A DNA stretch of 64,000 bases. It comes from Candidatus Altimarinota bacterium. GTDB taxonomy: Bacteria > Patescibacteriota > Gracilibacteria > UBA1369 > UM-FILTER-53-11. Positions 5,703 through 63,876 of the stretch are shown piece after piece. Positions within the stretch are counted from its first letter, which is position 1; each line of letters starts with the position of its first letter. Below the pieces are notes generated by a model. That model saw nothing but the letters and a program-made list of their open reading frames with translations, searched no databases and was not told where the DNA came from. The stretch spans positions 1 to 64,000 of the forward strand of contig JAGOUV010000003.1 of NCBI GenBank assembly GCA_018061065.1, given 5' to 3'. Both the position numbers and the translations under genes were made by a program.

Positions 5703-6822
5703 ACGTGCTGTCAGTGAGGGTGATGTTCCAGGAGGGAACCGTAACCTCGCGGTGATCACAGGACTCAACGTGACCCGCGAGCGTTGCGTTAAGACCAAGC
5801 TGTTTTGCCAAATCTACAATCCGCTGTCCTTCTTCAGCAGTACGGGTAAAGATTGCATACCCCACACCATAGTTAAAAATTTCGATCATCTGCTGCGTAG
5901 TGAGCTCAAGCTGCTCTTGAACAAAGGTGAAAATTTCAGGAACAGGGAGTGGAGTTTCAATGACGTAACGTAATGTCTGCTTAGGACGCATGAGTTTTTG
6001 CCAACCGTGACCTGAGATGGGTTCGATATTGGTTGGCTGAATACCCGCCTCTAAAATGCTTTGAATAAGCGGTGTATAGAGAACAGACGGCGCATTTAAT
6101 CCTTCCCAATATTCCTTTCCGCTGGGAAGTTTCGTGCGATAGCCGTGAGGAAGTTTTTCTGCAAGCGCACGGAGCGTCGTATAGCCATTTTCATGGGGGC
6201 CTGAACTTTGAACAAAAACAATGTGATCGCCGCTCGCGAGCTGTTCACTGGAGACGGGATTTTTTCCTGCAGGCATAAGGCCAAAAAGAGCTCCCGCAAT
6301 ATCCATCTTACCCTCAACTAATTTATTTTTTAGCTGAGGAGTTTCGCCGGAGAAATACACACAACCAACCTGCTTACATCCCTCTACAAAGCCATTGAGG
6401 AAGCCCGTCATAAACTGTTCATGAAAAACAAGTTCGGGCTGAGCAGAAGGAAGATAGAGCGAAATTAAAATTGTCTGCATGCCAGAAGAAGCGGCGTCGT
6501 TGGTCATGACTGCCACAGTTTTGATTCCAATATTGTACCAAAATTGCTCAAGCTCTTGAGGAGTGAGATCGTCAGGGCGGGCATCATCTGCGGTACCGAG
6601 CCCTTCGGGTAACAGCGTTATCGAGAGGTGTTCCGCGCCCATCTTTAGAAACGGCTTTAGGTCGAGCTGAAAAACGTTCGCGCTTGCCCCTAAGCGATTA
6701 TTGGGAATAAAACCGTATTTTTCTGCAAAACGCATGGTGCGCTGACCCGCTTGTATAAAGGCACTTTTAGCCTTATCTAGGACGTTATAGTCTACGTGCT
6801 CGACTTTTTTAGGTGCTGTCAC
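5686..6822 (-). CDS. purM: Phosphoribosylformylglycinamidine cyclo-ligase (AIR synthase)
   Basis: Catalyses ATP-dependent ring closure of FGAM to AIR, the step after PurL/PurQ. The 378-residue protein shows the PurM/PurL-like fold: an N-terminal region with DYNVLDKAK, TNDAASSG in the ATP-binding half, SGPHENGYTTLR and GHGWQKLMRP. The sequence is fairly divergent from model PurM enzymes, but these motifs and the purine context fit. The start is GTG at 6822; an extended -10 box (TGC-TACAAT) 6 bases upstream points to a leaderless GTG start. It is convergent with the PH-domain gene (17-bp overlap). Confidence 0.85.
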   Translation of the reverse strand: MTAPKKVEHVDYNVLDKAKSAFIQAGQRTMRFAEKYGFIPNNRLGASANVFQLDLKPFLKMGAEHLSITLLPEGLGTADDARPDDLTPQELEQFWYNIGIKTVAVMTNDAASSGMQTILISLYLPSAQPELVFHEQFMTGFLNGFVEGCKQVGCVYFSGETPQLKNKLVEGKMDIAGALFGLMPAGKNPVSSEQLASGDHIVFVQSSGPHENGYTTLRALAEKLPHGYRTKLPSGKEYWEGLNAPSVLYTPLIQSILEAGIQPTNIEPISGHGWQKLMRPKQTLRYVIETPLPVPEIFTFVQEQLELTTQQMIEIFNYGVGYAIFTRTAEEGQRIVDLAKQLGLNATLAGHVESCDHREVTVPSWNITLTDSTFTLQK

Positions 6823-6828
6823 GGGGGC

Positions 6829-6837
6829 ATTGTAGCA
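6829..6837 (-). promoter_or_regulatory. Extended -10 promoter of purM
   Basis: On the minus strand TGC-TACAAT lies 6 bases before the purM GTG, so the transcript would begin at or next to the start codon. No good -35 hexamer is seen, as is common for extended -10 promoters. Confidence 0.5.
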
Positions 6838-6892
6838 GCTTTTTCATGTTTTTTTCATAAAAATTTCATCTTCATTTGATATAAGAGGAGCC

Positions 6893-7771
6893 ATGGAAAA
6901 AGATGAATTGAAAGTGATGAGGAAAGCAGATGGCTATTACCCTGAATTATTAAAGGGCATTCCCGATGCCCCACAACAGCTTTTTTGCCTAGGTGATGCG
7001 ACGATTCTGAGTGGAGCAGCTATGTTTGTGGCGATCGTGGGAACGCGGCGGGCGACTGATTATGGCCTGCACATGGCACATCAAATAGCGGCTGAGCTGG
7101 CGGCGGCGGGCTGTGTGATTGTGAGTGGTTTGGCGTATGGGATAGATGCTGCGGCGCACGAAGGTGCGCTCGATGGCGGTGGCACGACTATAGCGGTGCT
7201 CGGGAGTGGACATGAACATGTAGAGCGACATACAAACAAACTTTTGGCACAGGAAATCCGGAAACGTGGCTGCATTATTAGTGAATATCAACCCGCGATG
7301 GCGCCGCATAGAGGAACCTTTCCCCAGCGAAATCGCATCATTGCGGGACTCTCACATGCCACCGTAGTTATAGAGGCGCCACATGCATCTGGAGCGCTTA
7401 TTACTGCACGTCACGCAATCGACTACGGCCGTGAAATCTGCGCGGTGCCGGGAAGCGTGATGCATGAAAATAACTCGGGGACACACGCGTTGATTCAAAA
7501 AGGTGAGGCGGCGCTCGTGACGAGCGCACGCGATATTATTGCCTTGCTGGAGCTCAACCCCTCAATTGAAAAAGCTTCCGCCACTCCCCTGTCTTCATTA
7601 TCAGAATACGAACGCACGGTACTGGAAGCGCTCACCACAAAAACAACATCACTGGAGCAACTACATCAGCACGTTTCATTACATCAAAGCAAACTACAAA
7701 GCACGCTCTCTCACCTAGAGCTTAAACAGCTCATTACGATTCGCGGAGATCAGATATTTGTCACACGCTGA
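6893..7771 (+). CDS. dprA: DNA-processing protein DprA
   Basis: DprA/Smf binds incoming single-stranded DNA during natural transformation and loads RecA. At 292 residues it has the Rossmann-like DprA core: VAIVGTRRATDYG near residue 46, VSGLAYGIDAAAHEGAL, TIAVLGSG, SEYQP, FPQRNRIIAGLS and a final AVPGSV segment, followed by a C-terminal winged-helix-like domain (about 235-292). AGAGGAG just before the ATG resembles a Shine-Dalgarno site, unusual in this window. A pilB-type ATPase and recA nearby fit a DNA-uptake role. The 3' end overlaps the convergent pilB by 22 bp. Confidence 0.93.
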   Translation: MEKDELKVMRKADGYYPELLKGIPDAPQQLFCLGDATILSGAAMFVAIVGTRRATDYGLHMAHQIAAELAAAGCVIVSGLAYGIDAAAHEGALDGGGTTIAVLGSGHEHVERHTNKLLAQEIRKRGCIISEYQPAMAPHRGTFPQRNRIIAGLSHATVVIEAPHASGALITARHAIDYGREICAVPGSVMHENNSGTHALIQKGEAALVTSARDIIALLELNPSIEKASATPLSSLSEYERTVLEALTTKTTSLEQLHQHVSLHQSKLQSTLSHLELKQLITIRGDQIFVTR

Positions 7772-11505: not shown

Positions 11506-11506
11506 C

Positions 11507-12007
11507 TTAATCTTCAAAAGATTCCTCTTCCCCGGTCAGCACGTCGAGAATGCGTGTATTGATCTGTGGCGCTCCGCCCTGAGATAACGTCTGCTCAAAG
11601 ACTTTGTAAGATCCAACTGCAGGAATTGAAAGTCGAGCTCTGAATTCAAAATACATATTTCGCAAAATTCGTTCATCTGGATAATAGTTGGCGTTCAGGG
11701 AAGTAAGTGTCTGCATAGCAACCCGCAGAATATTTTCCTCATTTTGAATTACGAGCATATCAATAGGCTCGTGTGGGTGAGTGAGTGATAGTGACTTCAC
11801 TACATCCGCAATTGCACCCATCATGAGTTTATTCCAAAATTCTTCTTTCCCAACTTCAGCAGCAATTTTTCCAATTTTTGCTTTATCTCCCTTAGTAGTC
11901 TGCACTCGTCTCAACGTTGTGACATCAGAAGAAAACGACCTATCAATCTCAGGGATTGAACACAGGTCAGTAAAATCACGAGCAGATGCGGGTGTATGTT
12001 TAAGCAT
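11507..12007 (-). CDS. Unknown protein, 166 residues
   Basis: A soluble, mixed-charge protein without signal peptide or membrane segment. The sequence suggests alternating helices and strands (EEFWNKLMMGAIADVVKSL, MLVIQNEENILRVAMQTL) and a short acidic tail. It lies between recX and nusA on the minus strand, 20 bases after recX, and may be transcribed with recX. The nusA -35 box begins around its stop codon. No family recognised. Confidence 0.6.
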   Translation of the reverse strand: MLKHTPASARDFTDLCSIPEIDRSFSSDVTTLRRVQTTKGDKAKIGKIAAEVGKEEFWNKLMMGAIADVVKSLSLTHPHEPIDMLVIQNEENILRVAMQTLTSLNANYYPDERILRNMYFEFRARLSIPAVGSYKVFEQTLSQGGAPQINTRILDVLTGEEESFED

Positions 12008-12027
12008 AGCTCGGACACTATAAATAT

Positions 12028-12504
12028 TTATCTTATTTTGTCAAGGGCACTCCAGATCGCATCAGAAGCAAATCCTCTGCTGGCCAACAATCGTTGCACC
12101 TTTTGCTTTTGCTTCATTCCCGTCAGTGATCGAAAAAGACGTTCTTTTGACTTGAGAAATTCTTTAATCAATTCACGCTCGTTAATATCTGCTTTATCCC
12201 ATTCCTCAAGTGCTTGATCCTTAGGAATACCTCGTTTTTGCATATCGTGAATAAAACCCCACTTTCCAACCGGATGCATGGGTAGGTGAAACTGAAGGTA
12301 ATTGATAATTACCTGTCTGTCGTTTATATAGTTTAATTCTTTTAAACGCGCCACGATCTGATCGATGATTGTAATCATCTCGGGCTCCTCTAGTTTTATT
12401 CGCTTAGCACGCAACTTGAGCTTTCCTCTCAACTGATGCTCGCTATAACTTTTGCGTCCCAAGAGACGGAAACAATACTGCAGTAGTGAATCGTACATTT
12501 TCAT
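12028..12504 (-). CDS. recX: Regulatory protein RecX
   Basis: RecX binds RecA filaments and limits recombinase activity. At 158 residues it matches the family: N-terminal LLGRKSYSEHQLRGKLKLR, then three-helix repeats including LKELNYINDRQV, HLPMHPVGKWGFIHDMQKRGIP and a C-terminal QRLLASRGFASDAIWSAL. It lies directly downstream of recA on the same strand, the classic arrangement, separated by a hairpin that probably lets only part of recA transcription through. Confidence 0.9.
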   Translation of the reverse strand: MKMYDSLLQYCFRLLGRKSYSEHQLRGKLKLRAKRIKLEEPEMITIIDQIVARLKELNYINDRQVIINYLQFHLPMHPVGKWGFIHDMQKRGIPKDQALEEWDKADINERELIKEFLKSKERLFRSLTGMKQKQKVQRLLASRGFASDAIWSALDKIR

Positions 12505-13858: not shown

Positions 13859-14674
13859 ATGAGAAACAATAGAATACTTTTAGTGGCATTAGTGCTCATC
13901 CTCTGTGGAGCGGGGGTAACCTTTGCGTATCAATATCGAGGACAGGTGAAACAGTATCTTTCTGATTTGCGAGCACCTGAGCTGCCCATGGAAGAACCCG
14001 TAACCGTGAGCGTTTTAACGCCTGAGCCGTCACCTACTCCTAAAGCAGCAGAACCTAAGGTGGAACCTAAGATAGAACCAAAAGTTGAACCAAAAAAAGA
14101 GGAAAAAATTCCAGCACAAAAAAATCTCGCCGTTCCTTTTACCACTCAGGCTCCCCATCAAAATTGGGACATGCCCTACCAAGAAGCATGCGAGGAAGCG
14201 ACCGTATTGATGCTTGACGCTTTTATAAAAGGATACGCACTCACTCCCGACTCTGCCGATGCAGCTCTCTTGAAAATTGTGGACTGGGAAAATAAAAACC
14301 TTGGATACTATAAAGACACTACCACCGCGGAAACTCTGCAAATTCTAAAATCACACTTTGGGATAAAAAATGTAGTTATAAAAACGAATGTCACCGCCGA
14401 ATTAATTAGAAAAGAAATTGCATTAGGACATCCGGTAATCTTGCCCACTGCAGGACGTATGCTTAAAAATCCGAACTTTAAGGCACCCGGCCCGTTGTAT
14501 CACATGGTGGTGGTAAAAGGATATCTTGCAGATGGTCGTTTTATTACTCACGATCCGGGCACGCGCAACGGCAAAGACTATATCTATACTGAAGAGGTAC
14601 TGCTAAATGCCACTCACGACTGGAATGGAGGAGATGTTGCAAACGGTCAAAAAGTGATGATTACGATACAGTAG
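13859..14674 (+). CDS. Secreted or membrane-anchored C39-like peptidase
   Basis: A 271-residue protein with an N-terminal membrane anchor or signal (about residues 5-25, ILLVALVLILCGAGVTFAY). A Pro/Glu/Lys linker with PKVEP-type repeats (about 55-85) follows, then a papain-like C39-family domain. The likely catalytic Cys is in YQEACEEA near 117, the His in YHMVVVKGY and the Asp in ITHDPGT. Unlike true C39 leader peptidases there is no ABC transporter part, so this is probably a free exported hydrolase. The 240-base gap before it is AT-rich and holds the divergent recA promoter. Confidence 0.8.
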   Translation: MRNNRILLVALVLILCGAGVTFAYQYRGQVKQYLSDLRAPELPMEEPVTVSVLTPEPSPTPKAAEPKVEPKIEPKVEPKKEEKIPAQKNLAVPFTTQAPHQNWDMPYQEACEEATVLMLDAFIKGYALTPDSADAALLKIVDWENKNLGYYKDTTTAETLQILKSHFGIKNVVIKTNVTAELIRKEIALGHPVILPTAGRMLKNPNFKAPGPLYHMVVVKGYLADGRFITHDPGTRNGKDYIYTEEVLLNATHDWNGGDVANGQKVMITIQ

Positions 14675-17590: not shown

Positions 17591-17618
17591 TTGACATACT
17601 CCATTCCTAGAGTAGAGT
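17591..17618 (+). promoter_or_regulatory. Promoter of the 722-residue protein gene
   Basis: TTGACA (17591-17596), 16-base spacer and TAGAGT (17613-17618). The ATG follows after 9 bases, implying a leaderless or nearly leaderless mRNA. Confidence 0.6.
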
Positions 17619-17627
17619 ACTGGCAAT

Positions 17628-21714: not shown

Positions 21715-21723
21715 AGTAGCGAA

Positions 21724-21752
21724 ATTCTAACAAGGCAGCCGCCAGGAGGCAA
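21724..21752 (-). promoter_or_regulatory. Promoter of alaS
   Basis: Minus strand TTGCCT (21747-21752), 17-base spacer, TAGAAT (21724-21729) preceded by TGT. Nine bases separate it from the alaS ATG, so the mRNA should be nearly leaderless. Confidence 0.6.
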
Positions 21753-21774: not shown

Positions 21775-21780
21775 AGCCAG

Positions 21781-44057: not shown

Positions 44058-44063
44058 AAGTGG

Positions 44064-47591: not shown

Positions 47592-47600
47592 TGCCGACAC

Positions 47601-51066: not shown

Positions 51067-51072
51067 GTACGT

Positions 51073-51081
51073 ACTATAGCA
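51073..51081 (-). promoter_or_regulatory. Extended -10 promoter of the SPFH gene
   Basis: Minus strand TGC-TATAGT, 6 bases before the ATG at 51066; leaderless layout. Confidence 0.55.
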
Positions 51082-51846: not shown

Positions 51847-51875
51847 TTGAGTAAAGAACCGAATTGTGATATGAT
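51847..51875 (+). promoter_or_regulatory. Promoter of the giant surface-protein gene
   Basis: TTGAGT (51847-51852), 17-base spacer, TATGAT (51870-51875). Transcription should begin near 51882. This shows that the open frame from TTG 51847 is not translated from that codon. Confidence 0.75.
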
Positions 51876-51883
51876 GACACAAT
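51863..51883. promoter_or_regulatory. Inverted repeat over the -10 box, candidate TrmB operator
   Basis: ATTGTG-N9-CACAAT, perfect 6-bp arms, covering the -10 element and start site of the giant gene and lying between it and the TrmB gene. Binding there would block transcription. TrmB as the ligand is inference from position. Confidence 0.5.
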
Positions 51884-51902
51884 GCATTTTTTCGTCAATT
51901 AA
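51882..51902 (+). other. Possible six-codon leaderless upstream ORF
   Basis: ATG at 51882, exactly where the promoter predicts the 5' end, reads MHFFVN then TAA (51900-51902), 13 bases before the main ATG. It is out of frame with the main gene. It could couple or tune translation; it may also be chance. Confidence 0.3.
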
Positions 51903-51915
51903 GCGTGGGGTTCTT

Positions 51916-54900
51916 ATGCTAAAAACAAAAAACATTCTCTGGCTCTTGACCCCACTTCTCTTATTTTCCCTGGGAAGTCAGAAAGCTTTTGCTGCAGCCG
52001 TAACGTGGGCAGGTGGTACAACGGGCACCTGGGAAACGGGCACAAACTGGAGTAGCGGCACACCTCCAACCTCAGCGGATGATGTGACTATTAATCGTGG
52101 GACAGCCGGGGCGGCAGTGACTCTTAGCGCGGGACAAACCGCTGATTTTAGTACGCTTACTATTGGAGGTAGTACTACGACGAATTCTCTAACTTTAGAG
52201 GGAAATATTGGCACGGGTGGCAGTGTAACCATCAAAAATCTATCTACCATTACTCAAAAAAATGCAGTACAGCAGATAATTTCCGGAACGTTGACGATTG
52301 AAAGTGGTGGCTCACTGACCCATACGGCAAATACAACAACTGCGCTCGGCCAACTATATTATATTAACTGGTCAGCTGCCACTATCAATGCACAGAGTGG
52401 ATCAACTATAACAGCAGCGGCAAAAGGATACGCAGGAGGTTCATCAACCACCGCCGGTCAAGGTCCGGGTGCTGGTGCTTTCTCAGGTGGTGGTGGTGCA
52501 CATGCAGGTAATGGAGGAAATAATTCGCTCAGCAGTGCAGCAGGTGGCACCGCATATTGTGATATGACCGATGTCGACACCATGGGTTCAGGTGGTGCCG
52601 GTGGTAACTTCAGTGGCAATAACTATTCAGGTGGCGCCGGTGGTGGATTAATTATTTTAAATGCATCGGGAACTGCAACCTTAAGTGGTGCAATTACCGC
52701 GGCCGGTAGTGCTGGTTCAAATAATGGCCGCTCGGGTGGTGGTGCCGGTGGTGGTATCAGAATTACTGCAAATACTATCGCGGGTACCCCAACCAGTTTG
52801 ACGGCGGCTGGTGGTACCGTAACCAGTGGTGGTAGTGGTGGTGGTGGATGTATCCAATTTACCTATACAGCCGCAAACAGTGTTTCAGCCAGCACCTTTC
52901 TCTCCACCTCTGCCATGATCGTGACCGGCTCAACTGGCGGCGCTTTTATCGGCGGTTCCGGTTCATTTTACGTGAAAGATACTGACAGTACCTATGGTGA
53001 CCTCGTCTTGAAAAATACTTCCACCGCTAGTACTGCCACGAGCACCACGGTCTCAAGTGCTTATGTATCAACTCTAACCTATGACAATCTATATCTAAAT
53101 GCAGCTGTAGTGGCGTCATCGGGAGTGACGGTGAATACCAGTGTGACGATGAATAATGCCAGTACCTTCACTATCCCTACTAATACAACAACTACCTTTG
53201 GATCCAGCGTCACTAGTATTGGAGTAACTGGTACAGCGCCTACTATTACAGTTGAAACTACGGGAAGCACGTTCAATGCGACCTCACTGACTGACTATAG
53301 TAGCGTGGGTTTATCTGTAGCAGATGGGGCTATATGGGGAAATGCTTCTACGTTGACTTCCAATACTTCCACAAGCATCACTCTTTCTTCTGGTTCAACT
53401 ATTTCAAATATATTTACCAGCATGAACTCGGCGGGAACATTAAACCTGCATCGTTTAGCCAATTTCACTATCAATGATTTAACGCTTAGCGGTGGTACTA
53501 CGACACTCACTGCGTATACCACGACAAATCCTCTGTCTCTTTCAACACTGACGATGACGACGGGAAGTTCACTGACACATACGGCAAATACAACAACTGC
53601 AGCAGGACAAGTTAATGTCCTTAATATTACTGCTACGACCATTGATCTTCAAAGTGGATCCACCGTCACGGCAGCGGGAAAAGGATATGCGGGAGGTTCA
53701 TCAACCACCGCTGGTCAAGGTCCGGGTGCAGGTGCTTTTGCGGGTGGTGGTGGGGCACATGCAGGTAACGGAGGAAATAATACGCTCACCAGCGCAACCG
53801 GTGGTACCGCATATTGTGATATGACCGACGTCGACACCATGGGTTCGGGTGGTGCGGGTGGGAACTTCAGTGGCAACAACTATTCAGGTGGCGCTGGTGG
53901 TGGATTAATTATCCTAAATGCATCAGGGACTGCAACCTTAAGCGGTGCAATTACGGCAGCCGGTAGTGTCGGTTCAAATAATGCCCGCTCAGGTGGTGGT
54001 AGTGGTGGTGGTATTAGAATTACCGCAAATACTATCGCGGGTACCCCAACCAGTTTGACGGCAGTCGGTGGGGCCGTGACCAGTGGTGGTAGTGGTGGTG
54101 GTGGATGTATTCAATTTACCTATACGACTTCAAATAGCGTTTCCGCCAGCACCTTTCTCTCCACTGCTGCCATGACAGTGAGCGGCTCGGTCAATGGTTA
54201 CCAGATTGGTGGTGCCGGTTCATTTTTTGTGAAAGATACCGATAGTACTTATGGTGACTTAGTTTTGGAAAATACTTCAACCGCTAGTACTGCCGCTACG
54301 ACCACAGTCTCAAATGCGACCATTGATAATTTATACACGAGTGCTGTGCGTATGAAATTGCCAGGCAGTACGATAAATACAAGCGTAACAATTAATAATG
54401 GTAGTGCGTTAGATATTGATTCCGGTGCTGAAAATGCGGCGACGTTCGGTTCAAGCATAACAAGTATAAGCGTAACGGGCACTGCTCCAACTATTACCAA
54501 TGCTGGAACTTTTACCGCTAATGGGCTTACCAGCCTAAGCGGAACAATTACCAATAGTGGAACGTTCAATGCAAATGGCCTTACGAGTTCGAGTGCCACT
54601 ATTACTACAACCGGAATTTTGAATGTCACTTCACTATCAAACCTGAGTGGAACTACACTTACTGTTTCAAGTGGAGGTGATTGGAATAATAATTCAACAA
54701 TAACTACTGACGGCACCTCGAGCATTACATTGAGCTCGGGTGGTGAAGTGCTCAATACGCTTACAAGTTTTACTTCAGCGGGAACGTTGGCTATATATCA
54801 GGGCGCTACACACACAATTACGGATTTAACTTTGAGCGGAGGCACGACGACGTTAAGTAACTTCACTACTACAGCGGCATTTTCTGTTTCTACGCTCACC

Positions 54901-57900
54901 ATGACCGGTACAAGCGTATTAGAACACACGGCAAATACAACTGCTCAAACACACATACTTAATATTGCGGCAACAACTATAAATATCGGTGCATCAGCAA
55001 GTATTAATGTGGATGGCAAGGGATACAATGCAGGAAATGGTCCCGCTGCAGGTACATCTACCGGTGGTGGTGGCCACTGCGGTAACGGTGGTGGTACAAC
55101 CGGAGGAACCGCAAACTGTAGCATAAGTAATTTAGTTACCATCGGTTCTTCAGGTGCTTATTACAATGCCACACATACTGGTGGTAGAGGTGGTGGATTG
55201 GCCATCATTACTGTCACTGGTACCGCAACAATAAATGGTACCATTTCAGCAAATGGTAGCTCGGGAGGCACCACTATCACGGGAGGAGGTGGTGGTGGTG
55301 GTATTAAATTAGTTGCAGGTACGGTTGCAGGAACACCGGCAAATTTCAGAGCTAATGGAGGCGCAAAAGGATCCGGCGGTTCAGGAGGAGGAGGTGGTGG
55401 TGGTGGTATTTATATTAGCTACAGCGTAAGCAGCAGTATCTCTTCAGTGAGCGTAACCGCTGGCTCTGGAAGTGGAACCGCTGCAAGTGCTGGACTAAGT
55501 TCTATCGTTCAATCAAACGCTGCTCCCACCGCAACAACTCCAGCAACTCCAGAAACTATTTCTCAAGCGACCGATGGTACCGGTTATGTTACCTTCCAAA
55601 CAACAATTTCAGATGCCAGTGATACTAAATTAAAAGTTGAATATTCAGATGATGGCGGATCAACATGGTACGACCCACTTTTAGTTTCAGCGACTCCAAG
55701 TGCTGGTACGACTGCTGATCTTGATAATGCCAATGCATATCAAATCGGCACATCGGATGCTATCGACACTTCTGGCGGTGATAAGACAATTACCATAGTT
55801 TGGGATACGCTTTCTGCCAGCAACGGCGGTGGTTCACTTGATACTACAACTCAAGCTGATATCCAAGTACGATTGACTGCCAATGATGCTACATCCGACA
55901 GTAGTGTTGCAACTTCCTTGTCGTTCTCAGTAGACAACCTCGATCCAACAATTTCCAGCAAAGCTACTGCTGATTTAGATGGTGATGGATATATTGACGC
56001 GGTACATGTTACTTTTGCAGAAAATATCGCTGATTCCAGTGTGGCCTTTGGTGATTTTGCAGTTACCGGGACTACTTCATTAGCGTTTAGTTCAACAACA
56101 AATTCCGACACAGCAAATGATGACGATATCTATCTTACCTTTACCGACGGCGTCCTAAGTACAAGCGCTGTACCAAATTTTGCCTATACTGCAGGAACAC
56201 TAACCGACGCATACGGAAATGCTCTCTCATCAGCCGTAGCGGCAGCATCCACCGATGGTGCAGGTCCTGCAATTATGTCAGCGGTCGCCTCCGATGAAAG
56301 TGTGTTTGGAGTCGGCATTGATAATGGCGATACAGTGACCATTACATTTAGCGAAGACACCAATCAAGCGACTATAGATGCAAGTACTATTAATAGCGCT
56401 CTCGCGCTGAATAACAGTCATGTGTGGACAGACGGAGGAGGTGCAATTGGCTCGGCAAGCTGGAGCAGTGCTTCTGTTTTAGTGATTACACTTTCAACGG
56501 GGACTACTGCACCGACTGTCGCTCTCAGTGATACGATCATTTTAAACGGCACTACCATTACTGACGGCACAAATAATTCAAGTACCGTCGCCTTCTCATC
56601 TATAAGTGGCGTCTTTGCAAGTGCTACGCCAGCCGTAACCGTCTCCGCAATTTCAGGAGCTACGGCCGAAGCGGGTGACACGGGAACTTTTACCGTTGTG
56701 TTAGGTACCCAGCCGACGGGAGATGTTGTGGTTGGGCTTTCAAGCAGCGACACAACGGAAGGAACTGTTTCTCCTGCCTCACTAACTTTCACTTCGGGCA
56801 ACTGGAGCACACCTCAAACCGTGACCGTAACGGGAGTCAACGATGATGCAGTTGATGGCGATATTGCCTATTCAATTATCACCGCTGCCGCGACTTCTAC
56901 GGATGGAAATTATAATACGCTCAACCCTGCTGATGTCTCCGCAACTAACACCGACAACGATACTGCCGGTATTACTATTTCAGCCATTACAGGAAATACT
57001 ACCGAGCCCAGTGGAACCGCAACTTTCACCGCGGTGCTCACCTCACAGCCAACTGCGGATGTGACATTTGAACTCTCAAGTAATGATACAACAGAGGGTA
57101 CTGTCTCTCCCGCTTCACTGACATTTACTTCAGGCAACTGGAGCACGCCACAAACGGTTACCGTAACGGGAGTCAACGATGATGTGTCTGATGGCGATAT
57201 TGCATATTCAATTATCACCGCAGCCGCAACTTCTACTGATGGAAATTATAATGCACTCAACCCTGCCGATGTTTCTGCCACTAACACAGATAATGACACG
57301 GTCGGTTTTACGATTTCTTCGATCACAACAGCTACGACCGAAGCGGGTGGTACTGCCACCTTTACGGCAATGCTCAATTCACAGCCAACTGCTGATGTGA
57401 CATTTGAACTTTCTAGTAATGATACTACGGAGGGCACCGTCTCTCCCGCTTCACTGACTTTTACTTCGGCTAACTGGAGTACACCTCAAACAGTTACCGT
57501 GACCGGCGTGAATGATGATGTGGATGATGGCGATATTGCTTTCTCAATTATCACCGCAGCCGCGACTTCTACTGATGTGAATTATAACGCGCTCAACCCT
57601 GGGGACGTTTCTGTCACTAACACGGACAATGACACCGCTGGATTTACCGTTTCTTCGATTTCAGCTGCTACAACAGAAGCTGGTGGAACCGCTACTTTTA
57701 CGGCAGTGCTCACCTCTCAGCCAACTGCTGATGTGACGGTTGAACTCTCAAGCAATGACACAACTGAAGGTACGATCTCCCCTGCTTCACTTACCTTCAC
57801 CTCGGGCAACTGGAGTACACCTCAAACAGGAACGGTGACCGGCGTGAATGATGATGTGGACGATGGCGATATTTCTTACTCGATTATCACGGCAGCAGCG

Positions 57901-60900
57901 ACTTCTACTGATGCTACCTACAACACCATAAACCCAGGCGACGTCTCTGTGACGAATACAGACAATGACACGGTCGGCTTTACGATATCTTCTATTTCAA
58001 CAGCTACAACAGAAGCGGGTGGCACTGCCACCTTTACGGCGGCACTGAATTCACAGCCAACTGCCGATGTGACATTTGAACTCTCAAGTAATGATACAAC
58101 AGAGGGTACTGTCTCCCCTGCTTCACTGACATTTACTTCCGGCAACTGGAGCACTCCACAAACCGTTACCGTGACCGGCGTGAATGACGATGCGGTCGAT
58201 GGTGACATTGCATATTCAATTATTACCGCAGCCGCGACTTCTACCGATGTTACCTATAATGCTATAAACCCAGGCGACGTTTCCGTAACGAATACGGACA
58301 ATGACAGTGCCGGTTTTACCGTTTCAGCAATTTCAAATGCCACGACAGAAGTCGGTGGCACCGCTACTTTTACGATGGTGTTAACTACTCAGCCAAGTGC
58401 AAATGTTTCCGTTGGCCTCACAAGTAACGATACAACTGAGGGTACTGTTTCTCCTGCTTCACTAACTTTCACCTCGGGAAACTGGAGCACGCCTCAAACC
58501 GTGACCGTAACGGGCGTCGATGATGATGCAAACGATGGAGACATTTCATACTCGATTGTCACCGCGGCTGCTACTTCAACGGATGGAAATTACAATACGC
58601 TCAATGCTTCCGATGTCTCAGTTAGCAATACTGATAATGACACTGTTGGTTTTGTTATTTTAGCTATTTCAGATACTACGACCGAAGCAGGCGGCACCGC
58701 TACCTTCACGGTGGTTCTGAACTCTCAGCCAACAGCGAATGTTTCCGTAGGACTCTCTAGCAGCGATACAACTGAGGGTACCGTCTCTCCTGCCTCACTG
58801 ACATTTACTTCTGGAAACTGGAGCACGCCTCAAACCGTGACCGTAACGGGAGTCAACGATGACGTGGTTGATGGCAACATTGCGTATTCAATTATCACCG
58901 CAGCTGCTAGTTCTACCGACCCAGAATACAACACAATGAATTCAAGCGATGTGAGCCTGACAAATAATGACAATGATATCGTGGGCATCACCGTGACTCC
59001 GACATCCGGTCTGACGACTACAGAGGCAGGAGGAACAGATACGTTTACCGTAGTTTTAGATACTCAACCAACTGCTGATGTATCTATCGAAATTTCAAGT
59101 GGCAGCACAGATGAAGGCACTGTTTCTCCTGCTTCACTTACCTTTACTTCAGGCAACTGGGCAACGCCACGGACAGTAACAGTGACTGGTGTGAACGACG
59201 ATGTTGATGATGGGGATGTCGCCTATACAATTGTAACTGCAGCAGCAACGTCTTCCGATGAAGACTATAATACCGTGAATGCAGCAAACGTATCAGTTAC
59301 CAATACCGACAATGATACAGCGGGAATAACGGTGACTCCAACATCTGGTTTAACGACTACAGAAGCGGGTGTGACAGATGAATTTACCGTAGTGCTTGAT
59401 ACAAAACCAACTGCAACCGTATCTTTTGGTGTTTCAAGCAGTGACACAACAGAAGGAACTATTTCAGCAAGTTCATTGAGTTTTACGACAACCAACTGGG
59501 CAACGCCACAAACGGTTACCGTGACGGGCGTAAACGATGATGTTGATGATGGCGATGGCACTTATTCAATTGTCACCGCTGCCGCGACTTCCACTGACAA
59601 CACCTATAACAATATAAACCCCAGCAACGTTTCCGTGACCAACACAGACAATGATACCGCTGGATTTACCGTTTCTTCGATTTCAAATGCTACGGCTGAA
59701 GCGGGCGACACTGCTACCTTCACTGTGGTACTCAACTCTCAACCAACGGCAGATGTGAGCATCGAACTCTCGAGCAGTGATACATCCGAAGGCACGATCT
59801 CTCCGGCTTCACTCACCTTTACTTCAGGCAACTGGAACACACCTCAGACGGGAACCGTAACGGGAGTCAACGATAATGTAGATGACGGCGATATAGCTTA
59901 TTCGATTATATTAGCTGCTGCGACTTCAGCAGACAGTATCTATAACGGTATAAATCCAAGCAATGTTTCTGTTACCAATACGGACAATGATACTTTTGGC
60001 ATTACTGTTTCAACTATTTCAAATGCTTCAGCCGAAGCTAGTGGTACAGCTACTTTTACCGTAGTGCTCACCTCTCAGCCAACGGCAAACGTGAGCATCG
60101 GGATCTCAAGCAGTGATACGACAGAAGGAACCGTCTCTCCTGCCTCACTGACGTTTACAACGCTTAACTGGAACACAGCACAAACAGTTACCGTAAGCGG
60201 AGTTAACGATGACGTGGTTGATGGTGATATCGCTTACTCAATTGTCACCGCAGCCGCAACTTCAAGCGACGGTAATTATAATACACTCAACCCCGCCAAT
60301 GTTTCTGTCACCAACACAGATGACGACACTGTTGGATTTACCGTTTCAGCTATTTCAGAACATACAACTGAAGCAGGTGGTACTGCTACTTTTACGGTGG
60401 CTCTCAATTCACAACCGACTGCAAATGTGAGTATCGCACTCACAAGCAATGATACAACAGAGGGCACCGTCACTCCCGCCTCACTCACCTTCACCTCCGT
60501 TAACTGGGATACACCCCAGACAGTTACGGTTACGGGAGTAAATGATAACGTGGTTGATGATGATATCGCTTACTCAATTATCACTGCTGCTGCTACTTCT
60601 TCTGACAATGATTACAACGATATAAATCCAGGCAATGTTTCCGTCACGAATAATGACAATGACACTGTCGATATTATTATTACTGAATCGGGTGGATCAA
60701 CTCGACTCACGGAGGGCAGTACGACCGATAGCTATACCGTGGTACTTAACTCAGAACCAACCGCGAGTGTAATTGTAACGGCTGTCTCAAACACACAAAT
60801 CACCAATTCAAGTCCGCTCACTTTTACGACCGCAAATTGGGACACACCACAAACAATAACGCTCACCGCCGTTGACGATACGACCGTCGAAGGAGCTCAC

Positions 60901-61638
60901 AGCGCTACCGTCACTCATACGGCGACATCCGATGATAGTTCATACCATGGCATTACAATGGATTCGGTAACTGCTTCTATCACTGATAATGACGTGGCTG
61001 CACCGACCACTGAAACTATTACTAATGTCACTAGTCCAAGTGGCTCTGCTCCGGGCGGAGGGACTTCAGTAGTCGAAACTCCTATTGTATTTACCTCACC
61101 ACGACCAGCTGCCTCTTTCTCCTTACCTATGAATCTTCCTATCGCAGTCTCCGTCGCAAATTCTGTTAATAGCGTTACTATCAACACTGCCAACCAGAAT
61201 GTTATTAACCTCAAGATTGGTTCGCTTAAACTGCCGGTAAAATTGCTAAAAAATAAGACGATAGACATTAGCACTGATGGAGATAAGCGCAACGACTTGC
61301 GCGTTACCTATATTGGTCTCACTAAAACAAATAAAGTATCCGTGCGTTTTATCTCTCTTGTTGATCCATCAGAATTAAAGCAAGGAGTGACCATAGAACG
61401 CGGTAACTATGAGACAGAAGATCATACGGTCGTATTGCAATTTAATCCTCCTAAAAAAACAGAGAGCATTTCAATCTCCAATAACCCAGATTTTGAGAAT
61501 GCTTCCTGGACAAAATACACATCGAGAAAAAACTGGCGGTTATCTGCTGGCAGTGGCAAAAAAAATATCTATGTAAAATTCCGCCTGGAAAACGGAGAAA
61601 TCATACAGGCTCAAGATTCTATTATGATTGCGAAGTAG
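51916..61638 (+). CDS. Giant secreted repeat protein (3240 residues) with Calx-beta-like array
   Basis: A very large exported protein, presumably a surface adhesin or fibre. The signal peptide is MLKTKNILWLLTPLLLFSLG... ending near AFA (about residue 26). Residues 133-374, 552-793 and about 1002-1195 are three copies of a Gly-rich beta module with Cys residues. About 1200-1570 has Ig-like/big domains (YSDDGGSTWYDP, DLDGDGYIDAVHVTF). Residues 1571-2916 are twelve near-identical 112-113-residue Calx-beta-like repeats with PASLTFTSGNWSTPQTVTV, followed by a diverged thirteenth. The C-terminal ~200 residues end in a domain with KKNIYVKFRLENG and no sortase motif or membrane anchor. ATG 51916 fits the promoter and signal peptide. 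Confidence 0.88.
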   Translation: MLKTKNILWLLTPLLLFSLGSQKAFAAAVTWAGGTTGTWETGTNWSSGTPPTSADDVTINRGTAGAAVTLSAGQTADFSTLTIGGSTTTNSLTLEGNIGTGGSVTIKNLSTITQKNAVQQIISGTLTIESGGSLTHTANTTTALGQLYYINWSAATINAQSGSTITAAAKGYAGGSSTTAGQGPGAGAFSGGGGAHAGNGGNNSLSSAAGGTAYCDMTDVDTMGSGGAGGNFSGNNYSGGAGGGLIILNASGTATLSGAITAAGSAGSNNGRSGGGAGGGIRITANTIAGTPTSLTAAGGTVTSGGSGGGGCIQFTYTAANSVSASTFLSTSAMIVTGSTGGAFIGGSGSFYVKDTDSTYGDLVLKNTSTASTATSTTVSSAYVSTLTYDNLYLNAAVVASSGVTVNTSVTMNNASTFTIPTNTTTTFGSSVTSIGVTGTAPTITVETTGSTFNATSLTDYSSVGLSVADGAIWGNASTLTSNTSTSITLSSGSTISNIFTSMNSAGTLNLHRLANFTINDLTLSGGTTTLTAYTTTNPLSLSTLTMTTGSSLTHTANTTTAAGQVNVLNITATTIDLQSGSTVTAAGKGYAGGSSTTAGQGPGAGAFAGGGGAHAGNGGNNTLTSATGGTAYCDMTDVDTMGSGGAGGNFSGNNYSGGAGGGLIILNASGTATLSGAITAAGSVGSNNARSGGGSGGGIRITANTIAGTPTSLTAVGGAVTSGGSGGGGCIQFTYTTSNSVSASTFLSTAAMTVSGSVNGYQIGGAGSFFVKDTDSTYGDLVLENTSTASTAATTTVSNATIDNLYTSAVRMKLPGSTINTSVTINNGSALDIDSGAENAATFGSSITSISVTGTAPTITNAGTFTANGLTSLSGTITNSGTFNANGLTSSSATITTTGILNVTSLSNLSGTTLTVSSGGDWNNNSTITTDGTSSITLSSGGEVLNTLTSFTSAGTLAIYQGATHTITDLTLSGGTTTLSNFTTTAAFSVSTLTMTGTSVLEHTANTTAQTHILNIAATTINIGASASINVDGKGYNAGNGPAAGTSTGGGGHCGNGGGTTGGTANCSISNLVTIGSSGAYYNATHTGGRGGGLAIITVTGTATINGTISANGSSGGTTITGGGGGGGIKLVAGTVAGTPANFRANGGAKGSGGSGGGGGGGGIYISYSVSSSISSVSVTAGSGSGTAASAGLSSIVQSNAAPTATTPATPETISQATDGTGYVTFQTTISDASDTKLKVEYSDDGGSTWYDPLLVSATPSAGTTADLDNANAYQIGTSDAIDTSGGDKTITIVWDTLSASNGGGSLDTTTQADIQVRLTANDATSDSSVATSLSFSVDNLDPTISSKATADLDGDGYIDAVHVTFAENIADSSVAFGDFAVTGTTSLAFSSTTNSDTANDDDIYLTFTDGVLSTSAVPNFAYTAGTLTDAYGNALSSAVAAASTDGAGPAIMSAVASDESVFGVGIDNGDTVTITFSEDTNQATIDASTINSALALNNSHVWTDGGGAIGSASWSSASVLVITLSTGTTAPTVALSDTIILNGTTITDGTNNSSTVAFSSISGVFASATPAVTVSAISGATAEAGDTGTFTVVLGTQPTGDVVVGLSSSDTTEGTVSPASLTFTSGNWSTPQTVTVTGVNDDAVDGDIAYSIITAAATSTDGNYNTLNPADVSATNTDNDTAGITISAITGNTTEPSGTATFTAVLTSQPTADVTFELSSNDTTEGTVSPASLTFTSGNWSTPQTVTVTGVNDDVSDGDIAYSIITAAATSTDGNYNALNPADVSATNTDNDTVGFTISSITTATTEAGGTATFTAMLNSQPTADVTFELSSNDTTEGTVSPASLTFTSANWSTPQTVTVTGVNDDVDDGDIAFSIITAAATSTDVNYNALNPGDVSVTNTDNDTAGFTVSSISAATTEAGGTATFTAVLTSQPTADVTVELSSNDTTEGTISPASLTFTSGNWSTPQTGTVTGVNDDVDDGDISYSIITAAATSTDATYNTINPGDVSVTNTDNDTVGFTISSISTATTEAGGTATFTAALNSQPTADVTFELSSNDTTEGTVSPASLTFTSGNWSTPQTVTVTGVNDDAVDGDIAYSIITAAATSTDVTYNAINPGDVSVTNTDNDSAGFTVSAISNATTEVGGTATFTMVLTTQPSANVSVGLTSNDTTEGTVSPASLTFTSGNWSTPQTVTVTGVDDDANDGDISYSIVTAAATSTDGNYNTLNASDVSVSNTDNDTVGFVILAISDTTTEAGGTATFTVVLNSQPTANVSVGLSSSDTTEGTVSPASLTFTSGNWSTPQTVTVTGVNDDVVDGNIAYSIITAAASSTDPEYNTMNSSDVSLTNNDNDIVGITVTPTSGLTTTEAGGTDTFTVVLDTQPTADVSIEISSGSTDEGTVSPASLTFTSGNWATPRTVTVTGVNDDVDDGDVAYTIVTAAATSSDEDYNTVNAANVSVTNTDNDTAGITVTPTSGLTTTEAGVTDEFTVVLDTKPTATVSFGVSSSDTTEGTISASSLSFTTTNWATPQTVTVTGVNDDVDDGDGTYSIVTAAATSTDNTYNNINPSNVSVTNTDNDTAGFTVSSISNATAEAGDTATFTVVLNSQPTADVSIELSSSDTSEGTISPASLTFTSGNWNTPQTGTVTGVNDNVDDGDIAYSIILAAATSADSIYNGINPSNVSVTNTDNDTFGITVSTISNASAEASGTATFTVVLTSQPTANVSIGISSSDTTEGTVSPASLTFTTLNWNTAQTVTVSGVNDDVVDGDIAYSIVTAAATSSDGNYNTLNPANVSVTNTDDDTVGFTVSAISEHTTEAGGTATFTVALNSQPTANVSIALTSNDTTEGTVTPASLTFTSVNWDTPQTVTVTGVNDNVVDDDIAYSIITAAATSSDNDYNDINPGNVSVTNNDNDTVDIIITESGGSTRLTEGSTTDSYTVVLNSEPTASVIVTAVSNTQITNSSPLTFTTANWDTPQTITLTAVDDTTVEGAHSATVTHTATSDDSSYHGITMDSVTASITDNDVAAPTTETITNVTSPSGSAPGGGTSVVETPIVFTSPRPAASFSLPMNLPIAVSVANSVNSVTINTANQNVINLKIGSLKLPVKLLKNKTIDISTDGDKRNDLRVTYIGLTKTNKVSVRFISLVDPSELKQGVTIERGNYETEDHTVVLQFNPPKKTESISISNNPDFENASWTKYTSRKNWRLSAGSGKKNIYVKFRLENGEIIQAQDSIMIAK
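52312..53037 (+). repeat. Large duplicated Gly-rich module, copy A
   Basis: 726 bp repeated with high identity and no length change at 53569-54294, exactly 1257 bp downstream. It encodes the module with THTANTTTA at the start and VKDTDSTYGDLVL near the end. Confidence 0.85.
53569..54294 (+). repeat. Large duplicated Gly-rich module, copy B
   Basis: Second copy of the 726-bp unit. Differences are mostly silent or conservative, so the duplication is recent or the copies are being homogenised. Confidence 0.85.
54921..55500 (+). repeat. Diverged Gly-rich module, copy C
   Basis: A shorter, more diverged relative of copies A and B (EHTANTT, GKGYNAGNGPAAG, GGGLAIITVTGTATINGTI, GTPANFRANGG), with two of the Cys kept. 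Confidence 0.65.
56626..60663 (+). repeat. Array of twelve Calx-beta-like coding repeats
   Basis: Units start at 56626, 56962, 57298, 57634, 57970, 58306, 58642, 58978, 59317, 59656, 59992 and 60328. Ten are 336 bp and two (the eighth and ninth) 339 bp. Each encodes the core EGTVSPASLTFTSGNW...VTVTGVNDD and ends NTDND. A thirteenth, clearly diverged unit follows from 60664 to about 60990. Confidence 0.92.
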
Positions 61639-61741: not shown

Positions 61742-62488
61742 ATGAAGCAAACAATACTTGCATACTTTGATACACCATTCACTTGTGAGGGAAATGCAAA
61801 AATAATCGCCGTAGAAAAAGATGAAACGGGAACGGATGTAATTATATTAGATCAGACGATTTTCTATCCGCAGGGCGGCGGTCAGCCATATGATTTAGGA
61901 ACGATAGAAAGTAAAAAGGCAGTATTTCAAGTTACTTCAGTGCGCTATAAAGAAGGTATTGTTTACCATGGAGGAGTTGTGATTTCTGGCTTATTTAAAG
62001 CCGGAGACGAAGTTATATGCAAAGTTGATATAGAAAGAAGAAAGCTCAATAGTCGCCTCCATTCGGGCGGACATTTAGTAAGTGCGGCACTTGAACAGCT
62101 CGGCTATTTCTGGGAACCCCATAAAGGACACCATCATCCTGACGGGCCGTATGTTGAGTATAAAGGAACGATAGAGCTAGCAGAAATCGAACCGCTCAAA
62201 AAAGCACTCGAAGAAAAAATGGCAGAGATTCAAAAAACCGATGCAGACGTATCATTTCACATTATGACTCTTGAAGAATTAAAACGAATCTGCCGTTTTG
62301 TACCGCCCTATATTCCTAAAGACAAACCGAGCCGCGCTGCTATTTTTCATATGACACCCGAGCATGGTGGTGATATGGCAATCCCCTGCGGCGGAACTCA
62401 CGTGGCTCGATTAAGCGAAATTGGGCCGATTATAATTCCAAAAATTAAGTGCAAAGAAGGCATCATAAAGATCTCATACCGCTTGTAG
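61742..62488 (+). CDS. alaX: Alanyl-tRNA editing protein AlaX
   Basis: A free-standing editing enzyme that hydrolyses mischarged Ser- or Gly-tRNA-Ala. The 248 residues hold an AlaRS second-additional-domain-like N-terminus (DQTIFYPQGGGQPYDLGTI) and the editing core with HSGGHLVSAALEQLG and CGGTHVARLSEIG (zinc ligands His, His, Cys, His). The length fits the AlaX-L/M class without the C-terminal domain. The window's AlaRS already has an editing domain but lacks C-Ala, which makes a separate editing factor notable. Confidence 0.9.
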   Translation: MKQTILAYFDTPFTCEGNAKIIAVEKDETGTDVIILDQTIFYPQGGGQPYDLGTIESKKAVFQVTSVRYKEGIVYHGGVVISGLFKAGDEVICKVDIERRKLNSRLHSGGHLVSAALEQLGYFWEPHKGHHHPDGPYVEYKGTIELAEIEPLKKALEEKMAEIQKTDADVSFHIMTLEELKRICRFVPPYIPKDKPSRAAIFHMTPEHGGDMAIPCGGTHVARLSEIGPIIIPKIKCKEGIIKISYRL

Positions 62489-62547: not shown

Positions 62548-62721
62548 ATGAGAGAACGATCTGAATGGGGACGGAGACCGATGATGACACCTGGGCATTG
62601 GACATCGTACATCGAATCACTGAAAGGTTGTGCATCACGTCCTGAAGCAGCAAAGTCTACGGATGTTGACGGTGCACGCGAACGCTATCAGCGGGCATTA
62701 TTGGAGGCCACCGGGGAGTAA
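62548..62721 (+). CDS. Small unknown protein, 57 residues
   Basis: An ATG-to-TAA frame in the 270-base gap between alaX and the MscS gene. It codes a basic, soluble peptide starting MRERSEWGRRPMMTPGHWTS and ending GARERYQRALLEATGE. An AT-rich TATAAAAT lies about 9-12 bases before the ATG, matching the leaderless promoters elsewhere. Codon content looks like that of the neighbours, but homology is unknown. Confidence 0.45.
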   Translation: MRERSEWGRRPMMTPGHWTSYIESLKGCASRPEAAKSTDVDGARERYQRALLEATGE

Positions 62722-62743
62722 ACTGGCTCTGGAGGGCATTTTG

Positions 62744-62752
62744 TGCTATAAT
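62744..62752 (+). promoter_or_regulatory. Extended -10 promoter of the MscS gene
   Basis: TGC-TATAAT (TATAAT at 62747-62752), 8 bases before the ATG at 62761; leaderless layout. Confidence 0.65.
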
Positions 62753-62760
62753 TACTAGAT

Positions 62761-63876
62761 ATGTTTTTAGCATATTTAGTAGCAAAAGCAGGCGAAGGAG
62801 ACTCAGCAGAAGTGAGTGGTTTGGCGCAAAAAATTGCGGGGTTTTTCGACTATATAATTGCGCAGGTACCTAGCTGGATCGCCGGAGGTATCGTGTTTAT
62901 CGCGAGCTTCCTTATGGCAAAGCTGGCAAAGGCAGCGGTGGAATCACGCATTGGAGATAAAATTGATGAGGAACATCAGGAAGTCTTGGTATTGGCCGGT
63001 CGTGTTACATATTTTGTAACACTGATTCTAGGAGTTACGATTGCACTCAAAATTGCAGGTATCGATTTAACAACCATCCTCGCCGCCGTGGCGTTTGGTA
63101 TTGGTTTTGCGCTGCAAGATTTAATTATGAATTTCTTATCGGGTGTTTTGATTTTAGTAAGCCGGCAGTTTACCATTGGTGATTTTATTAAAGTGGGTTC
63201 TACAACGGGAAAAGTGATGGAAATCCAAACGCGTGCCACGATTTTAAAGGCAACTGATGGAACAAAAGTGATCGTGCCGAACTCGGAAATTTTCCGCAAT
63301 CAAGTGGTAAGTTATACGACAAATCCTACCCGCCGTGTCATTATTCCAATTTATGTTTCTTACGATACGGATATTAGCTATGCGGTAAAAATTGCATTGG
63401 ACGTTCTTAAAAACCATCCGAAAATTTATAAAAAACCTGCGCCTTCTGTGGTAATCAATGGCTATGGAGATAGCTGTATTGAAATGACCGGACGTTTCTG
63501 GGTGGGCTCACGCGATGGTTGGTTTAAAATTAAGAGTGAGCTCAATCAACAGATGCTCGAGGCACTTACTGAAGCGGGCATTGAGATTCCCTATAATATT
63601 TTGCACTTAGAAACGAGTTCTGATACAAAAATGGACAACGAATCAAATGCTTCATTGCGAAAAAAACGCATGGAAGAAATGCGATTGTCTAAGGCAATTG
63701 CAGCAAGTGCGCCAAGTGCTCCCCCACTCGAAGCGCAGCTTCCTGCTAACCCAACGGTTATTGCTATCGGAGCTGCTACGCCTCCACCAACACCCGTTCC
63801 CGCACCCGTGATGGTTGAGTCAGTAGATCCCGTGGGCTCGTATCAGGATCAGCTGGAGATAGATGGGCAAGCTTAA
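62761..63876 (+). CDS. mscS: MscS-type small mechanosensitive channel
   Basis: Channel that opens under membrane tension to release solutes after osmotic downshock. The 371 residues have three membrane segments (about 35-55, 75-95 and 100-125). The MscS signature GFALQDLIMNFLSGVLILV forms the pore helix TM3, then RQFTIGDFIKVGSTTGKV and the beta domain with VPNSEIFRNQVVSYT. The cytoplasmic alpha/beta domain has FWVGSRDGWFKIKSELNQ. A tail of about 80 residues, rich in Ala and Pro, extends beyond the usual end. It is a single gene with its own promoter. Confidence 0.94.
   Translation: MFLAYLVAKAGEGDSAEVSGLAQKIAGFFDYIIAQVPSWIAGGIVFIASFLMAKLAKAAVESRIGDKIDEEHQEVLVLAGRVTYFVTLILGVTIALKIAGIDLTTILAAVAFGIGFALQDLIMNFLSGVLILVSRQFTIGDFIKVGSTTGKVMEIQTRATILKATDGTKVIVPNSEIFRNQVVSYTTNPTRRVIIPIYVSYDTDISYAVKIALDVLKNHPKIYKKPAPSVVINGYGDSCIEMTGRFWVGSRDGWFKIKSELNQQMLEALTEAGIEIPYNILHLETSSDTKMDNESNASLRKKRMEEMRLSKAIAASAPSAPPLEAQLPANPTVIAIGAATPPPTPVPAPVMVESVDPVGSYQDQLEIDGQA

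Follow-up and report, generated by a model that had tools for sequence, protein, structure and literature searches.

In the accessible parts of the survey by Zheng et al. (2011; PMC3160421), leaderless genes account for approximately 20% of genes in the leaderless-rich Actinobacteria and approximately 40% in Deinococcus–Thermus, and their hallmark is a TA-type signal that precedes the start codon by about 10 bp. Candidatus Peribacter riflensis, of the Candidatus Peregrinibacteria, is listed as scarce in Shine–Dalgarno (SD) motifs (7%) and as lacking a conserved CCUCC in the 16S rRNA tail (PMC10783764, Table 4, 2024), so the loss of CCUCC in this group is not in itself new. Here, we analyzed start-codon promoters in the window, a 64,000-nucleotide stretch comprising positions 1–64,000 of contig C13, and in the genome to which it belongs (G000; 1.30 Mb, 28 contigs, 98.5% complete). 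The last open reading frame (ORF) of the window is closest, among three named relatives, to a Candidatus Peregrinibacteria metagenome-assembled genome (61% identity). About a quarter or more of the genes in G000 appear to have a sigma70-type −10 box ending 6–9 bases before the start codon, which points to leaderless starts combined with a decayed anti-SD; we give this reading a probability of roughly 0.87. It draws on the position, grammar, and conservation of the promoters, the rarity of SD motifs, and the rRNA tail, all of which were read from the DNA.

A sequence-only reading of the window had proposed systematic leaderless transcription as the main mode in this genome. When start sites were tallied over 524 kb of the 1.30 Mb (359 genes), −10 boxes were indeed enriched at the predicted distance relative to shuffled sequences. 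We write d for the count of bases that separate the last base of the −10 hexamer from the start codon, and we call a hexamer strict when T1, A2, and T6 are fixed and at least five of six positions match TATAAT. RNA polymerase initiates approximately 6–8 bases downstream of the −10 box; for a box at d = 6, initiation is expected at the start codon itself. Strict hexamers occurred at d = 6 before 33 of the 359 genes (dinucleotide-shuffle mean 2.8, maximum 8 in 200) and at d = 5–9 before 71 (mean 13.6, maximum 23). Individual positions had 1–4 hexamers at d = 0–4, 4 at d = 5, 11–12 at d = 7–9, and 0–8 at d = 10–30. Boxes with the TGn extension (hexamer ≥4/6) were similarly confined, with 1 at d = 0–5 and 37 at d = 6–9. 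At internal in-frame ATGs, the strict hexamer was found at d = 6 in only 10 of 2,869 cases and at d = 5–9 in 1.4%. In a further 280 kb added to the analysis later, with the coding model retrained on all stretches, the peak was repeated (14 of 184 genes at d = 6), and the d = 5–9 share was 16.0% of the 119 genes with free upstream space and 23.1% of the 65 genes lying <40 bp behind a same-strand neighbor. Even without a gene caller, an ATG or GTG stood exactly 6 bases past 31 of 186 TGnTATAAT-like sites (2–12 at other offsets); on the reversed sequence, this was true of 3 of 188 sites. Chance occurrence, in which AT-rich intergenic DNA supplies TATAAT-like hexamers everywhere, is favored by the background level (5.5% of genes for every 5-base upstream interval), but the dinucleotide shuffles, internal ATGs, reversed sequence, Escherichia coli control, and later stretches all argue against it, and this explanation is scarcely credible.

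Genes were called with a codon-usage model that is blind to the upstream sequence; in 50 kb of E. coli (42 genes listed), 39 genes were called with the right stop, and 33 of these also received their annotated start. The six misplaced E. coli starts lend something to the view that the starts are mis-called, with the true starts lying downstream and the promoters having normal leaders. However, shifting to the next in-frame start destroyed the peak (3 genes at d = 6), whereas choosing the longest ORF or the first ATG retained it (24 and 15, respectively). A box was also present in G000 in 40 of the 162 orthologue pairs with agreeing starts described below, and mis-calling leaves the excess of GTG at the peak unexplained. 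Systematically misplaced starts are accordingly very improbable.

The boxes near the start codons also had the grammar of promoters. Expectation–maximization (EM) seeded with a TGnTATAAT-like word, its position left free, settled on TGnTATAAT and found the motif before approximately 45% of the 359 genes. Positions d = 6–9 held 58% of the position mass, and positions nearer to the start held none; on shuffled and internal-ATG sets, the fits were degenerate, the largest single position holding 7% and 12%, respectively. The TGn extension was present in 28 of the 71 near-start boxes vs 0 of the 41 chance boxes at internal ATGs, and in 33 of the 136 boxes farther upstream (d = 15–49), a set in which further genuine promoters may be present. 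In six genomes pooled because they showed the peak, a −35 element (≥4/6 matches) lay at a spacing of 17 bp from 25 of 128 boxes, and the other 21 spacers had 2–13 (13 at 18 bp). GTG starts were found in 18 of the 71 genes with a near box vs 14 of the 288 others (p = 1.5e-6). Transcription starts favor a pyrimidine–purine step, with which the C directly before the start codon in 21 of the 33 d = 6 genes agrees. Among reciprocal-best orthologues, 162 of 361 pairs had agreeing starts and were kept (195 were dropped for start disagreement and 4 for length); 10 pairs had the box in both members, 30 in the G000 member alone, 6 in the member from the relative alone, and 116 in neither, giving an odds ratio of 6.4 (p = 8e-4) for pairs that are not independent. 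Two pairs had GTG starts and d = 6 on both sides, and in these the flanks appear by eye to differ except for the box and its distance. The TGn extension, the GTG excess, and the conservation across orthologues indicate that the boxes are promoters, from which transcription is expected to start on the first codon.

That SD sequences are almost absent, as the sequence-only reading had it, was borne out: SD-like 4-mers (GGAG, GAGG, and AGGA) precede 4.5% of genes in G000 vs 12.2% of internal ATGs, and in the window they precede 5 of 46 called genes, 2 of the 5 at doubtful starts. Beside G000, 13 other genomes of the order were sampled. SD-like 4-mers were rare in 13 of the 14 (0–6.1% of genes vs 8.5–22.2% at internal ATGs); in G002 (57 genes), there was no difference (12.3% vs 13.1%).

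A second class of genes emerged from box positions in these genomes. Over 1,328 genes of the relatives, TGn boxes were two-peaked, with 2 at d = 0–5, 46 at d = 6–9, 19 in all at d = 10–19, and 5–12 per position at d = 20–33, which suggests that genes of this order seem to have either no leader or a leader of at least about 14 nucleotides. The 131 genes with a box at d = 20–32, drawn from all 14 genomes, had leaders rich in A (40–59%) and poor in G (4–11%) from −15 to −2, a T at −1 in 56%, an SD-like motif in 2, and ATG in 128. By comparison, the 83 genes with a box at d = 6–9 started with ATG in 66 cases, GTG in 16, and TTG in 1 (Fisher p = 7e-6 for the GTG difference). A T directly before the start codon was seen in 37–62% of genes in all 14 genomes, including those in which leaderless boxes were unseen. 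These upstream regions bear on the alternative that the boxes are an AT-rich translational signal, as in SD-less Bacteroidota, and that the transcripts start farther upstream. In its favor, 13 of the 14 genomes have few SD-like motifs, leadered genes are A-rich upstream, the −35 signal is weak in G000 alone, and, according to the accessible text of PMC6847099, Flavobacterium johnsoniae translates leadered mRNAs without SD. On the other hand, the boxes have promoter grammar (TGn at 28 of 71 vs 0 of 41 boxes, and the pooled −35 peak at 17 bp) and a sharp peak at the usual −10 to +1 distance, and the leadered class differs in being A-rich, G-poor, and almost exclusively ATG-initiated. We consider such a signal an improbable substitute for promoters at the start codon.

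With motif weights fixed, EM assigned 27.9% of G000 genes to d = 5–10, compared with 1.2% for shuffled sequences (at most 1.9% among 5 shuffles), 0.1% of 110 E. coli genes, and 8.4% of 86 Deinococcus deserti plasmid genes. The strict hexamer at d = 5–9 gave 19.8%, or approximately 14% above background. Both estimates are probably undercounts, because weak boxes escape detection, some genes are hidden by wrong starts (as in GlmU), and D. deserti scored only 8.4% with the same weights, compared with the approximately 40% given for Deinococcus–Thermus genomes in PMC3160421. The motif-model share lies above the approximately 20% of genes taken to mark leaderless-rich bacteria. Leaderless transcription in G000 can thus be called systematic on the sequence evidence of the peak, grammar, GTG excess, conservation, and controls, but at approximately 28% of genes, the proposal that it is the main mode is not supported, and the leadered class stays visible when weak boxes and mis-called starts are allowed for. 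By the same measure, the relatives ranged widely: 17.9% in G057, 17.3% in G043, 13.4% in G034, 12.8% in G029, 10.8% in G003, 8.9% in G019, 7.5% in G002, 6.9% in G023, 6.8% in G044, 1.8% in G020, 1.6% in G012, 1.4% in G045, and 0.2% in G053. The values for G023 and G044 (shuffle maxima 9.1% and 7.7%) and for the four lowest genomes lay within their own shuffle maxima, and G000 had the highest share of the 14 genomes sampled.

Few stretches of bacterial RNA are as conserved as the anti-SD, and the usual 16S rRNA 3′ end has the form GGTTGGATCACCTCCTTT. In G000, the end reads GGATGGATTATCTCTTTTTATAG (L001, 2990–3020), so that the tail is UUAUCUCUUUU and not UCACCUCCUUU, and CCUCC is lost. This altered tail is the likely reason behind the start pattern and, lying outside the window, was invisible to the sequence-only reading. 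An exact anchor before the tail matched 52 of the 89 genomes of the order, the rest being undecided by this pattern; 37 of the 52 continue with NNACCTCC and 15 do not (without ACCUCC). None of the 14 deviant tails read (G005 was left out) contained CCTCC, and G020, whose anchor differs, adds one more. The losses occur in five families (f1, f4, f14, f15, and f16), four of which also have members that kept the anti-SD, and the anti-SD varies between genera of one family; loss forms were mild (ATCTCC) or strong (CTCTTTT and TTCCCTT). Of the 48 tails read in the order, 26 were chosen and folded without a shuffle control, and in all 26, the anti-SD paired with the pre-16S trailer as a short hairpin (−2.3 to −8.1 kcal/mol), the pairing in G000 being among the weakest (−2.6 kcal/mol). 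The trailer changes with the anti-SD across families (AGGAG/CTCCT, AGAG/CTCT, and AGGGG/CCCTT), which speaks against sequencing error. In the wider phylum, CCTCC was present in 16 of the 17 tails read (the highest-scoring of 27 new loci), the exception being CCGCC in G132, of the same class; a phylum-wide exact-pattern count (12 of 286 genomes) was not relied on, since so specific an anchor does not suit distant 16S genes.

Several other candidate accounts of initiation in G000 were examined. Before genes without a near box, the only tail-complementary 4- and 5-mers enriched were those containing ATAA or TAAT (with AATC and GATAA weakly so), and the G-containing core words AGAG, GAGA, and GAGAT were depleted; a new SD matching the changed anti-SD was rejected, since the enriched words resemble −10 boxes or AT-rich leaders and the core words are depleted. 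An intact CCUCC hidden by bS21, bS18, and bS6, as in Bacteroidota, does not apply, CCUCC itself being changed in G000. As for loss of bS21 as an explanation, PF01165 found no bS21 in G000, although this profile for a small, divergent protein is weak throughout (matches in 24 of 59 genomes, of which 6 exceeded the cut-off). Loss of IF3 was rejected because IF3 is present, and loss of S1 is not supported, since a 397-amino-acid frame with three S1 domains exists. The Era profile TIGR00436 matched in 59 of 59 genomes, 52 over the cut-off. The best places in G000 were two G domains in one 462-amino-acid frame (profile positions 3–171 and 2–163 of 270), which appears Der-like by its layout, and a third match covered positions 2–159; judging by the best three of seven matches, Era with its KH domain is probably absent from G000. 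This agrees with the accessible text of PMC12641178, in which Gracilibacteria and three other classes mostly lack era. Era binds GAUCA and CCUCC (PMC10582724, in the parts accessible), and its absence would remove a second constraint on the 16S tail.

Several observations weigh against leaderless starts coupled to a decayed anti-SD. The motif model places approximately 72% of genes outside the leaderless class, and in G000 alone, only 8 of the 71 boxes had a −35 element at 17 bp, with 0–7 at other spacers. The caller-free test was undistinctive in the pooled relatives (47 of 963 sites at +6; 11–51 at other offsets). The simple gene caller, in addition to its 6 errors in 39 E. coli starts, mis-called GlmU in G000, and the orthologue test suffers from non-independent pairs and from the 195 of 361 lost to start disagreement. 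Finally, anti-SD decay and leaderless share track poorly (7 lost vs 7 kept, Mann–Whitney p = 0.097): G043 keeps CCUCC with 17% leaderless genes, and G020 has lost it with 2%. Anti-SD loss as a simple driver of leaderless starts was therefore rejected, being nonsignificant in 14 genomes and having clear exceptions. The majority without a detected near box, together with G053, G012, and G045, which almost lack near boxes and yet also lack SD, would suit a view in which the leaderless promoters are incidental: SD-less mRNAs with leaders would yield most of the protein, and leaderless starts would be tolerated without being an adapted mode. Against this, boxes tend to stay at the start in diverged orthologues (the 10 pairs), and the thin d = 10–19 zone in the relatives suggests selection against very short leaders. 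We regard incidental promoters as a possible but rather doubtful account.

Preferring leaderless starts with a decayed anti-SD, we infer the following for the actual 5′ ends, the route of the ribosome, and the cause of the decay. The transcript would begin at the A or G of the start codon or no more than approximately 3 bases away. A 70S ribosome, or a 30S subunit with IF2 and initiator tRNA, would then load on the 5′-terminal AUG or GUG. With IF3 and an S1-domain protein present, both known routes are open. Leadered genes, nearly always starting with ATG, would be found through unstructured, A-rich, G-poor leaders without SD. Neither mode would need pairing between the mRNA and 16S rRNA, and the anti-SD has decayed to its present form, perhaps helped by a lack of Era, a protein that also reads this tail. 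Whether the whole order has left SD initiation is, in our estimation, evenly balanced: in that case, it would use a leaderless mode and a mode with A-rich leaders of at least about 14 nucleotides, with few genes between; the anti-SD would be decaying in several families, held only by its pairing with the trailer; and G000 would be the most leaderless of the 14 genomes.

Within the window, a strict box at d = 5–9 was found before 11 of the 46 called genes. Fifteen genes had been singled out by the sequence-only reading, and a −10-like hexamer at d = 6–10 was confirmed in all 15; 11 of them match TATAAT at five or six positions, with T1, A2, and T6 intact. On the minus strand, these are purM (6820–6834; TACAAT at 6829–6834 with TGn, d = 6 to the GTG at 6822), the alaS-like gene (21712–21729; TAGAAT at 21724–21729, d = 9 to the ATG at 21714), the GlmU-like gene (31188–31227; TTGTCA-17-TATATT, d = 8 to the ATG at 31190, the caller having chosen a later ATG at 31151), the first purP-like gene (35881–35895; TATACT at 35890–35895, d = 6 to the ATG at 35883, with TTGAGA at 16 bp), the second purP-like gene (36921–36959; d = 7 to the ATG at 36923), and the SPFH/Band_7 gene (51064–51078; TGCTATAGT, hexamer d = 6 to the ATG at 51066). 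On the plus strand, they are the DUF3352 gene of 512 amino acids (21769–21783; TGCTAAAAT, hexamer d = 6 to the GTG at 21781), the MATCAP/DUF1704-like gene (39141–39159; TATAAT at 39141–39146, d = 10 to the ATG at 39157), the O-antigen ligase-like (Wzy_C) gene (42770–42787; TATAAT at 42770–42775, d = 9 to the ATG at 42785), the split lipoprotein gene (44029–44066; hexamer at 44052–44057, d = 6 to the ATG at 44064), and mscS (62747–62763; TGCTATAAT, hexamer d = 8 to the ATG at 62761). Both −35 elements quoted earlier were found as described, TTGACT-17-TATAAT before 44064 and TTGACA-17-TAGAAT before 36923.

Three of the 15 genes have weak boxes with only 4/6 matches: the 722-amino-acid gene, for which no Pfam family was found at E 1e-5 (17591–17630, plus; TTGACA-16-TAGAGT, d = 9 to the ATG at 17628), the purN-like gene (Formyl_trans_N; 28520–28536, plus; TAGAGT at 28520–28525, d = 8 to the ATG at 28534), and the PEP carboxylase gene (PEPcase_2; 34187–34203, minus; TGGTACACT, hexamer d = 8 to the ATG at 34189). 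The remaining gene, ftsW (47598–47614, minus), has a weak box, CATAAT (47609–47614), at d = 8 and belongs in the list only if the GTG at 47600 is its uncertain start. The gene given as an SD exception, dprA (6880–6895, plus; the earlier label, unchecked), does have an AGGAG-like SD, but also a TG-A-TATAAG box, TGATATAAG, whose hexamer (6880–6885) overlaps the SD at d = 7 to the ATG (6893) and is weak, its sixth base not being T. Boxes also precede three genes absent from that list: a 166-amino-acid gene (12005–12044, minus; TTGACA-16-TATAGT, d = 9 to the ATG at 12007), a C39-like peptidase gene (13870–13885, plus; TAGAAT, d = 7 to the GTG at 13883), and a 265-amino-acid gene (48704–48720, plus; TAAAAT, d = 8 to the ATG at 48718).

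Some of these genes have features of their own. The frame of the lipoprotein-like gene (44064–45380) is interrupted after approximately 46 codons and is followed by an open frame from 44253 onward, reflecting a frame break or an assembly error. The purP-like genes form a tandem pair (DUF1246/DUF1297; 34705–36923) with purH (AICARFT/IMPCHase) close by at 37524–39071, which brings the two routes for the late purine steps next to each other. The gene at 39157–40500, the DUF1704-like gene of the earlier reading, is a bacterial relative of MATCAP (microtubule-associated tyrosine carboxypeptidase). A single reading frame of 3,263 codons, 3,240 from the ATG, spans 51847–61638. At 61742–62488, a 248-amino-acid protein matches tRNA-synt_2c at positions 478–551 only and is separate from alaS (19780–21714); we presume that it is perhaps an AlaX-like editing protein.

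Promoter positions in an order with a varying anti-SD show how genes may start without it, and the purpose of the anti-SD and the order in which SD use, leaderless starts, and Era were lost become open to comparative testing. SD-expecting gene finders may also misplace starts in these genomes. Deinococcota and Actinomycetota presumably keep CCUCC, and G000 differs from them in its very low SD use and decayed anti-SD. It shares with them the TA-type (−10) signal just before the start codon, and Patescibacteria are not among the leaderless groups (plus one unclassified genome) named in the accessible text of PMC3160421. Among the open-licence papers listed on Patescibacteria, the candidate phyla radiation, Saccharibacteria, and Peregrinibacteria, in the parts accessible, we found no report of leaderless genes or promoters in this group. 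Relative to the SD-scarce organisms of PMC10783764, the 16S tail was followed here through 52 genomes of one order, together with promoters by sequence; the spread and grading of CCUCC loss within one order do not appear in the accessible parts of that paper. The 128 organisms without CCUCCU in PMC6107228 generally lack SD, and no variant SD fits their variant anti-SD, as is also the case here; its accessible text names Bacteroidetes, Tenericutes, Proteobacteria, and Firmicutes, and its main text nowhere contains the word Peregrinibacteria. F. johnsoniae resembles our leadered class in having no SD and favoring adenines before the start, but 87% of its predicted transcripts have leaders of >10 nucleotides, and leaderless mRNA is not behind its lack of SD, whereas G000 has a sharp leaderless class (PMC6847099, accessible parts). 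The archaeal Nanoarchaeia and Sulfolobus, according to the accessible text of PMC10783764, combine leaderless mRNAs with a lost anti-SD as G000 does; in contrast to them, G000 is a bacterium with sigma70-type promoters and a bacterial IF3.

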